Assembly: GCA_903875345.1 (NCBI GenBank)
Contig: CAIQVS010000305.1
Location: 1-40,406 of the forward strand
DNA length: 40,406 nucleotides
Direction: 5' to 3'
Source: an uncultured Pseudomonadota bacterium
Lineage (GTDB): Bacteria; Pseudomonadota; Alphaproteobacteria; UBA9219
The first letter of the stretch is position 1. Each line of letters opens with the position of its first letter. This document shows positions 1-1,394 of this stretch, in pieces. The position numbers were made by a program, and so were the translations under genes. The notes under the pieces are model-generated. The model worked only from the letters and a program-made list of their open reading frames with translations. It searched no databases and had not been told where the DNA came from.

Positions 1-1
1 C

Positions 2-109
2 TGGTATCGTCGTCTATCCAAAGACTATGAGCACGATCCAAAAACCTCTGAGGCCATGATCCACTTCACCGCCTCAACACTCATGCTCAGGCGTTTAGCA
101 ACTTTGTGA
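2..109 (+). CDS. IS5-family transposase, C-terminal end (cut by window edge)
   Basis: Frame 2 is open from the window edge to a TGA at 107-109. It encodes a stretch beginning WYRRLSKDYE and ending LMLRRLATL. The RRLSKDYE...TSEAMI...LMLRRL pattern is the typical last segment of IS5-family DDE transposases, just after the catalytic Glu helix. Only about 35 residues are visible, so I cannot say whether the rest, left of the window, is intact. A second transposase remnant in another frame begins at once downstream, so this looks like an IS-dense junction. Confidence 0.7.
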   Translation, partial: WYRRLSKDYEHDPKTSEAMIHFTASTLMLRRLATL

Positions 110-644
110 ACAAGCTCTTAGGCTCGCTTAGCTACTCCAGCCCCCAAGGCAAAGCGCAGCTTAATATCGTGCTGGTCGATAGCACGACATGGAAGGTGCA
201 TCGCCACGGTGGCGGCTCAAAAAAGGGGACTGCACGAGGGGCAAAAACCGCGCTGGCGTAACGACCAAACTGCATCTTGCTATCACGCCGGACTATCGGG
301 TGGTCGAAGGCCAGCTAACCGGCGGCAATGTTGCCGACATCACAATGGCCGATGCGCTTACGGCTGAAATTGTTGGTTGTTATATCGTTGAAGATAGGGG
401 CTATGACAGCGACGATCATCGTCAGGAACTCACGGCCAACAACAATGTTCCGGTCATTCCCGGACGCAAAAATCGCAAGGTCGAGATCGTTTACGACAAG
501 GCTCTCTACCGTTGGCGGCGGCGCATCGAGATGTTCTTCGGCTAGCTCAAGGAAAATCGTCGCCTTGCCGTCCGTTACGAAAAAACAGACATCGCTTTCC
601 TCGGCTTTATCGCCCTCGCAGCCCTCAAAATACACCTTTGTTAA
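106..644 (+). pseudogene. Degraded IS5-family (IS427-like) transposase with frameshift site and premature stop
   Basis: Frame 1 encodes NKLLGSLSYSSPQGKAQ, then LVDSTTWKVHRHGGGSKKG, matching the DSTxxKxHR block that carries the first catalytic Asp of IS5-type transposases; it stops at 259-261. Frame 3 carries on the family alignment from about 219 (NRAGVTTKLHLAI, ADITMADAL, VEDRGYDSDDHR with the second Asp, RWRRRIEMFFG with the Glu region). A TAG at 543-545 then interrupts it, followed in frame by LKENRRLAVRYEK and a stop at 642-644. The frame change may be a programmed -1 shift at A AAA AAG (219-225). The TAG and the missing N-terminal region argue for decay. No terminal inverted repeats were recognised. 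Confidence 0.8.
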
Positions 645-793
645 CAGCGTCTAGCTATATGGCTTTTCCAGTTCTTTTCCTGTTGCTTGAACTGCTGTTC
701 GAGATCAGTGGCGTAAAGATCTTTAGGATAAAAGCGCGATCCCACTAAAAATGGAATATTCAAATCAATGTACGGACGTGAAAAAATCCCCAT
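641..793 (-). CDS. Possible 50-residue ORF ending at the IS remnant
   Basis: An ATG at 793-791 opens a 50-codon frame ending in TAA at 643-641. It starts MGIFSRPYIDLNIPFLVGSR and continues FYPKDLYATDLEQQFKQQEK. Composition is protein-like, with mixed charged and aromatic residues and no low complexity. The stop coincides with the end of the transposase remnant, so the last few residues may derive from the element and the ORF may be the stump of a longer gene. The only Shine-Dalgarno candidate is the G-run on the near arm of the hairpin at 802-850. I recognise no family, and it may not be expressed. Confidence 0.35.
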   Translation of the reverse strand: MGIFSRPYIDLNIPFLVGSRFYPKDLYATDLEQQFKQQEKNWKSHIARRC

Positions 794-801
794 AAAAAGC
801 T

Positions 802-850
802 AACCCCCGTTCGGCATGCCTGCGATCGCGTGGCACACCGAACAGGGGTT
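802..850 (-). terminator. Long hairpin followed by T-runs, downstream of the Lys/Ala peptide gene
   Basis: Arms 802-814 and 838-850 pair over 13 positions with a single G-T wobble, and the interior can extend the stem (GCC/GGC). Reading the minus strand, TTTTT follows within a few bases and TTTTTT at 786-781. This fits an intrinsic terminator for the gene at 887-952. However, the ATG of the 50-residue ORF lies right after the first T-run, so a role as a leader structure is not excluded. Confidence 0.6.
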
Positions 851-886
851 GAAGATATCATCATGTCGCCTGACGGCGACAGAGAG

Positions 887-952
887 TTACTTCTTCTTCG
901 CTGTTTTCTTCTTGGTAGTCGTCTTCTTAGCAGCTTTTTTCTTAGCAGCCAT
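887..952 (-). CDS. 21-residue Lys/Ala/Thr-rich basic peptide (histone H1 tail-like)
   Basis: An ATG at 952-950 follows a perfect AGGAGGT (964-958) at 5-nt spacing. The frame encodes 21 residues, made of 11 Lys, 5 Ala, 4 Thr and the initiator Met, and ends in TAA at 889-887. The repeats (MAAKKKAAKK, then TTTKKKTAKKK) resemble the free basic tails of bacterial histone H1-like proteins and extended HU proteins, which bind DNA non-specifically through charge. No folded domain is possible at this length. The strong ribosome site, the hairpin terminator 37 bp downstream and a TTGACT box upstream make it a complete small transcription unit. DNA or RNA binding is inferred from composition only. Confidence 0.7.
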   Translation of the reverse strand: MAAKKKAAKKTTTKKKTAKKK

Positions 953-1394
953 GAGTGACCTCCTGTGACTAGAGTAGAGTGAAATGATGTTGAGGCGCGC
1001 AAGAAAAATAGTCAACAACATTTTCGCATTGCATGATGAATCGGAATCAAATTTTTTCGCATCGCCGTTGCGCGTTGCATGCGTGCAACATTTTTCCGGT
1101 TATGACGACGATGAAACATCTTTGCTGTCGCACAAGCGATCAACATTGCGCTCCGGACGCAGAATTTCACAAAGCGTCGTGAGATGTTCGACTCAATTTG
1201 AAACACAAACCACTAACGAATTATGAATGACCATTGAAAGAAGAAGCGAAACGAAATGCTCCGGCGTTCTGATTCATCGTACGCAGCGACTAAAGCCATC
1301 ATGGAAGCCAGTCATAATGTTGACGCGATCAACAGGCTTAAATCATAATCGAACATGCTGTACTATCAATCATCGCAATGACGGGGCTTTTGCC
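953..1394. other. 442-bp divergent intergenic region
   Basis: It separates the minus-strand basic peptide gene from the plus-strand MscS gene. Besides the candidate minus-strand promoter, I see one compact inverted repeat, GTTGCA-TGCG-TGCAAC (1074-1089), followed by ATTTTT. The frames open here (984-1226 and 1012-1206) look non-coding. The frame from 1227 runs into the MscS gene, but its extra residues do not look like a signal or a domain. No convincing promoter for the MscS gene was found. Confidence 0.4.
987..1015 (-). promoter_or_regulatory. Candidate promoter of the basic peptide gene
   Basis: On the minus strand TTGACT (1015-1010) is followed after 17 nt by CAACAT (992-987). The -35 box is good and the -10 box is weak. 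The start of transcription would lie near 980, giving a leader of about 28 nt that contains the AGGAGGT site. Confidence 0.3.

Follow-up and report, generated by a model that had tools for sequence, protein, structure and literature searches.

The question raised by this locus is whether an open reading frame of 21 codons, encoding almost nothing but lysine, alanine and threonine, is a gene, and what such a peptide could do in the cell. The frame lies in the window, by which we mean the whole 40,406-nucleotide stretch of DNA that was analysed, from a source assembly of 3.12 Mb in 454 contigs. The original prediction had described here a coding part preceded by an AGGAGGT at 5-nt spacing and a TTGACT box and followed by a long terminator hairpin. 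Each of these elements is present where it had been placed, on the minus strand (Table 1), with the Shine-Dalgarno (SD) sequence, start, stop and terminator of the miniprotein gene all inside ~230 nt. We consider it close to certain that this ORF is a real gene.

Table 1. Features of the miniprotein gene in the window.
Feature	Position	Strand	Remarks
Miniprotein ORF, 21 aa	887..952	minus	ATG 952-950, TAA 889-887; product MAAKKKAAKKTTTKKKTAKKK
Shine-Dalgarno AGGAGGT	958..964	minus	5 nt from the ATG; GGAGG kept among orthologues
5' leader ACTCTACTCTAGT, predicted transcript start	968..980	minus	same or nearly the same string in nearly all f1 orthologues
Predicted -10 box CAACAT	987..992	minus	equal spacing in f1 promoters and in several of f2 and f3
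Predicted -35 box TTGACT (extended TGTTGTTGACT)	1010..1015	minus	17 nt to CAACAT
Short post-stop hairpin GTCGCC-GTCA-GGCGAC	865..880	minus	folding of f1 transcripts
Long terminator hairpin, inner motif CGCG...GC	802..851	minus	model R1 match, E 6e-14; covariation; energy
Terminator U-rich tail AGCUUUUU	794..801	minus	U5 at 798-794

A simple promoter scan of the window did not list TTGACT-N17-CAACAT and a simple terminator scan of it did not list the hairpin at 851-802, and the case for both signals therefore rests on their conservation. CAACAT scores poorly as a -10 box when judged against E. coli rules, but it is nonetheless kept in relatives, and transcription would presumably start at the leader ACTCTACTCTAGT. 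The hairpin region gave z-scores of -4.2 to -4.75 when its folding was compared with that of shuffled sequences, and the stretch 851-794 has the hallmarks of an intrinsic terminator, a stable GC-rich stem with a U run behind it. The promoter boxes also form an approximate inverted repeat (ATGTTGT...ACAACAT, 987-1020 in the window, and in orthologues). Among the f1 promoters compared, that of G009 has its CAACAT copy shifted, within TCAACATCAT, and its inverted repeat is almost perfect (ATGATGTTGA...TCAACATCAT). A palindromic operator over the promoter was considered and is not supported, as the left arm differs among species while the right arm (the -10 box) is constant.

A chance ORF in a spacer, or an (AAG)n microsatellite, might be suspected given that the local DNA is of low complexity and rich in lysine codons, but we regard this as scarcely credible. 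When Lys-rich ORFs were defined as 16-60 aa with at least 45% Lys, none occurred in 25 first-order Markov versions of the window as against exactly one in the window itself. The ORF pattern with its SD matched once in the whole of its own genome and its reversed control not at all, and the control nearly always gave 0 matches in the genomes scanned. The chance origin is refuted by the conservation of the ORF across the order together with SD, promoter and terminator.

This conservation was not apparent from protein searches. The 21-mer found matches in only 4 of 59 genomes and an alignment-profile search missed even its own copy; since low-complexity sequence makes a poor query, DNA patterns combining the SD, the start and KKK codons were used instead. 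The pattern of SD, ATG and KKK codons recovered copies in a number of relatives within the family, and the promoter pattern TGTTGTTGAC-N18-CAACAT recovered copies in 15 f1 genomes. Nearly all of these 15 have in common the promoter spacing, the leader, the SD AGGAGGTC and both hairpins, around an ORF of 17-34 residues of K, A, T, V and P. A 40-aa form in G003 and a fragment in G015 were located by a covariance model of the hairpin. In the families f2 and f3 orthologues were sought around the same tRNA(CAU) gene and then by a relaxed ORF pattern, and intact ones of 19-45 aa were found in five of five and four of four genomes, respectively. A search of genome contigs with the MscS neighbour as the query gave no match. 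Public records with the exact promoter and SD were metagenome-assembled genomes (MAGs) labelled Alphaproteobacteria, Rhodospirillales or uncultured proteobacterium. Two exact promoter-pattern matches in Nocardioides MAGs were rejected as chance, an unrelated gene following them.

Altogether, an intact single copy is present in 27 of the 33 genomes of the order, an uncultivated one within the Alphaproteobacteria, covering all three families (f1, f2 and f3), and a 28th genome, G015, has the C-terminal half only, at a contig edge. Loss of the ORF in relatives, which would have spoken against the original prediction, is thus not what was found. No gene was found in G012 (94% complete) or in G008, G014, G021 and G023 (62-82% complete), and because the nearly complete G012 appears to have no copy, the gene may be dispensable. 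The promoter spacing, which the original prediction had not considered, is kept across families. In G001 and G017 the ORF and its SD are present with different promoters; in G001 the promoter and the terminator are both unrelated in sequence, and throughout f2 the terminator sequence has been replaced, with ORF and SD retained in each case. The most telling indication that the peptide is important is that the ORF and SD are kept while the promoter and terminator are replaced.

Comparison of the orthologous sequences demonstrates that selection acts on the protein. The 666 residues following Met in 26 orthologues comprise K 343, A 188, T 47, P 40 and V 37, together 98%, the remainder being R 6, S 2, G 2 and I 1, with no acidic and no aromatic residue. 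The net charge ranges from +10 to +28 and is +11 in MAAKKKAAKKTTTKKKTAKKK; even the shortest orthologues, of 17 and 19 aa, carry +10 and +12. The first KKK is lysine in 26 of 26 orthologues while its third positions vary between AAA and AAG in six codon combinations. Simulated mutation of the ORFs at 20% per site left such a composition in 0.5%, and the remaining two frames contain stops and other residues, the pattern being absent from them. Length ranges from 17 to 45 aa, the 40-aa form in G003 being assembled from in-frame repeats, and such shifts by whole residues or small repeat units are expected if only charge and spacing matter. Lys is encoded by AAG at a frequency of 0.70 compared with 0.44 in the genes of the window, and Ala by GCT at 0.51 compared with 0.15. 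This lean would be compatible with high expression, and it may also stem from the repeats themselves. The usual lower limit of gene callers is 90 nt, and most orthologues are shorter than 30 aa, in keeping with the expectation that such genes would be missed.

The 3' hairpins add a second layer of conservation. In all 15 f1 transcripts folded, the short hairpin occupies the equivalent place with a varying sequence. In the terminator of f1 and f3 an inner CGC...GC core is nearly invariant and the stem shows compensatory changes: nine pairs are altered on both sides, one of them (columns 21-32) being seen as AU, UA and GC, and 95.7% of cells are paired compared with 89.7% after shuffling (0/500). 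The covariance model of this hairpin finds essentially one site per genome, always at the miniprotein gene, and the locus-specific motif, of which the original prediction made no mention, was never found apart from the ORF. Since the 3' hairpin is so strongly conserved in f1 and f3, a role at the RNA level is also suggested, and it is possible that the hairpin in these families does more than terminate transcription.

Taken further, the near-invariant core, the strong covariation and the restriction to one locus per genome could mean that the RNA is the product, as a small regulatory or dual-function RNA whose 3' hairpin binds a protein or RNA, the ORF being secondary. We consider this distinctly unlikely, since the hairpin never occurs without the ORF, yet the ORF occurs without the hairpin in G001 and all of f2, and the encoded residues are kept while third codon positions vary. 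Nor does Rfam hold a matching family; the Rfam 15 covariance models, at gathering score, detected only tRNA in the window and near the orthologues. A broader proposal combines both levels: the bare charged tail of 17-30 residues would be a minimal nucleoid protein and a core gene of the order, and its transcript would be dual-function, the hairpin having its own partner, for example through feedback of the peptide on its own mRNA. We put this forward tentatively, as a conceivable but rather improbable arrangement.

The surroundings of the gene bear on whether it acts on its own. Its neighbours in the window are an IS transposase remnant on one side and, on the other, an MscS-type channel gene that runs on the opposite strand; dnaA is ~12 kb away. 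Broken into several frames, the transposase remnant (1-654, plus strand, PF01609 DDE) follows closely downstream of the gene, at the edge of the contig. In other genomes the gene has either rpoD and dnaG or alaS and tRNA-Leu(CAA) close by, the names rpoD, dnaG and alaS having been assigned by eye from the protein sequences. In one genome of the G001/G004/G006/G007 cluster (L097, L099, L101), where rpoD is near the miniprotein gene, RpoD has a long Lys/Ala/Pro-rich N-terminal extension. As regards synteny, which had been proposed as a check, the flanks change often, and a tRNA(CAU) gene is found within ~1.5 kb in 15 genomes of the order, that of the window being 36 kb off.

As there is no constant neighbour, the gene is best seen as an independent transcription unit and not as a leader. 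Leader peptides and attenuators typically consist of a short ORF with hairpins behind it, and one at this locus would sense the supply of Lys, Ala or Thr and control a neighbouring gene. The neighbours, however, vary by genome and strand (MscS-like gene, rpoD, alaS, tRNA genes), the last hairpin is a terminator beyond which nothing recurs consistently, and an alternative antiterminator fold was not seen, making such control very improbable. Of the proposal that this is a free H1-like tail made as a separate gene, the separate gene has thus held up, with the same architecture in 27 of 33 genomes and changing neighbours; the likeness to an H1 tail holds by composition only.

We propose that this monocistronic gene encodes a free and disordered polycation with DNA, RNA or both as its binding partners, a reading to which we give a probability of about 0.6. 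A housekeeping-type promoter, TTGACT-N17-CAACAT, would give a transcript of ~190 nt ending at the terminator hairpin, and the consensus ribosome site would direct translation of 17-45 residues, about half of them Lys with Ala/Thr/Pro/Val spacers. The absence of acidic and aromatic residues, a charge of +10 to +28 and a variable length together point to a product that is disordered and acts through its charge. The peptide (+11 here) would bind electrostatically to nucleic-acid phosphates, in the manner of the H1 C-terminal tail, Hc2 and AlgP, so that DNA would be neutralised and compacted, or RNA coated, without a folded domain. Binding to nucleic acid is likely on these grounds, and the preference for DNA over RNA as the main partner is a judgement. 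It counts against this proposal that the DNA affinity conferred by eleven charges is only moderate at the ionic strength of the cell, and that function cannot be proven by homology with low-complexity sequence, for which the family models give no match. Packaging of plasmid DNA is stable with oligolysines of at least 16 residues and less so with K8 (PMC4991294), and the charges of the miniproteins, 11-16, would fall between the K8 and K16 oligolysines described there.

The polycation could instead be directed at RNA or the ribosome, as an RNA chaperone, a small basic protein bound to the ribosome or a factor in RNA/polyphosphate condensates, and not be a nucleoid protein. Composition alone does not distinguish DNA from RNA as the partner, basic ribosomal proteins of very small size are known (bTHX, bS22, bL37), and the nearby tRNA(CAU) in 15 genomes and tRNA-Leu(CAA) in some are a weak hint of translation, although the tRNA may be a mere neighbour. 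RNA binding and repression of translation have been reported for Hc2 (PMC2848022), and AlgP, whose tail is similar, is found in association with polyphosphate granules (PMC9239181). The known small ribosomal proteins, however, have fixed complex sequences, whereas here the sequence drifts freely over 17-45 aa, and we regard an RNA- or ribosome-directed role as unlikely, though it is the main alternative.

Lys-rich proteins were also sought across the class. A strict pattern found only the gene itself, being too tight; a relaxed version was run on 386 genomes drawn across the class, and the figures rest on the matches read. Most matches fell in the N-terminal tails of large proteins. Families f96 (31-36 aa) and f103 (31 aa, also near tRNA(CAU)) have standalone Lys/Ala miniproteins. 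The f96 loci (L194, L195, L196) encode Lys/Ala/Val miniproteins with a parallel gene anatomy, in which a leader hairpin lies 5' of the ORF and a long hairpin, unrelated in sequence, lies 3' of it. In f33 two standalone proteins of 124-144 aa with AAPKKK-type repeats (L202, L204), from small genomes, look like a long version of the same idea, their genes being preceded by a TGTTGAC box and a good SD. In f14 the Lys-rich frame is 62 aa; at L103 (G043) a separate 62-aa Lys-rich frame follows an apparent mdh. Stretches of 76-87 aa in f100 were rejected as standalone homologues, since at L198, the f100 locus read, the stretch is an in-frame C-terminal extension of malate dehydrogenase; this tail consists of 87 Lys/Thr/Ala/Arg residues and L200 looks alike.

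If our proposal is true, a charged low-complexity tail without a folded domain can be a conserved core gene. At 17-30 aa it would lie at the lower limit of proteins, and such genes would be missed twice, gene callers passing over them for their shortness and family models for their simplicity. The gene would offer a natural system for studying the function of an isolated H1-like tail in bacteria, and it bears on the idea of a bacterial origin of the H1 family (cited in PMC9239181).

Such tails are already known on larger proteins, and the new aspect is the H1-like tail alone as a core gene. H1-CTD-type tails, such as those of AlgP, PhaF and HupB, resemble the miniprotein in their AAKK/PAKK composition, high net charge and expected disorder; Lys, Ala and Pro likewise dominate here, with 0 D/E in 666 residues, and what the miniprotein does not share is the joining of the tail to a folded domain. 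The ribosomal proteins bTHX, bS22 and bL37 are also very short, strongly basic and encoded by their own genes, but they have fixed complex sequences and the likeness is one of charge only. No family in Pfam, NCBIfam, PHROG or Rfam covers the miniprotein gene. The 21, 34 and 45 aa forms gave no match to the HC2 models PF07382, NF038052 or NF038053 at E up to 10; PF07382 was reached, below its cut-off, only by a longer Lys-rich tail from elsewhere in the class. The miniproteins do show the features of an HC2-type body, with Lys-rich repeats, Ala/Thr/Val/Pro and a length that changes by in-frame repeats; by model score they are not members of HC2, and the likeness is one of composition. The MDP1 tail is an H1-like tail of similar composition (PMC5974015). 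Tails of the H1 and MDP1 type belong to larger folded proteins, unlike the free miniprotein, and common descent with them cannot be shown from low-complexity sequence. The C-terminal KPAA tail of AlgP/PhaF from Pseudomonas is also disordered, rich in Lys/Ala/Pro and likened to the H1 tail, and peptides derived from this Lys/Pro/Ala segment in AlgP have DNA-binding activity in vitro (PMC9239181). That tail has ~150-195 residues carried on a folded N-terminal domain, whereas the gene described here encodes nothing but the tail. Also close are Hc2 (HctB of Chlamydia) and proteins of the BpH1/BpH2 type, which are likewise free-standing Lys/Ala repeats with Thr/Val/Pro, at 165-237 aa compared with 17-45 aa for the miniproteins. 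Hc2 binds both DNA and RNA and varies in length by in-frame Lys-rich repeat units (PMC2848022), a size variation that the repeat-built 40-aa form of G003 resembles.
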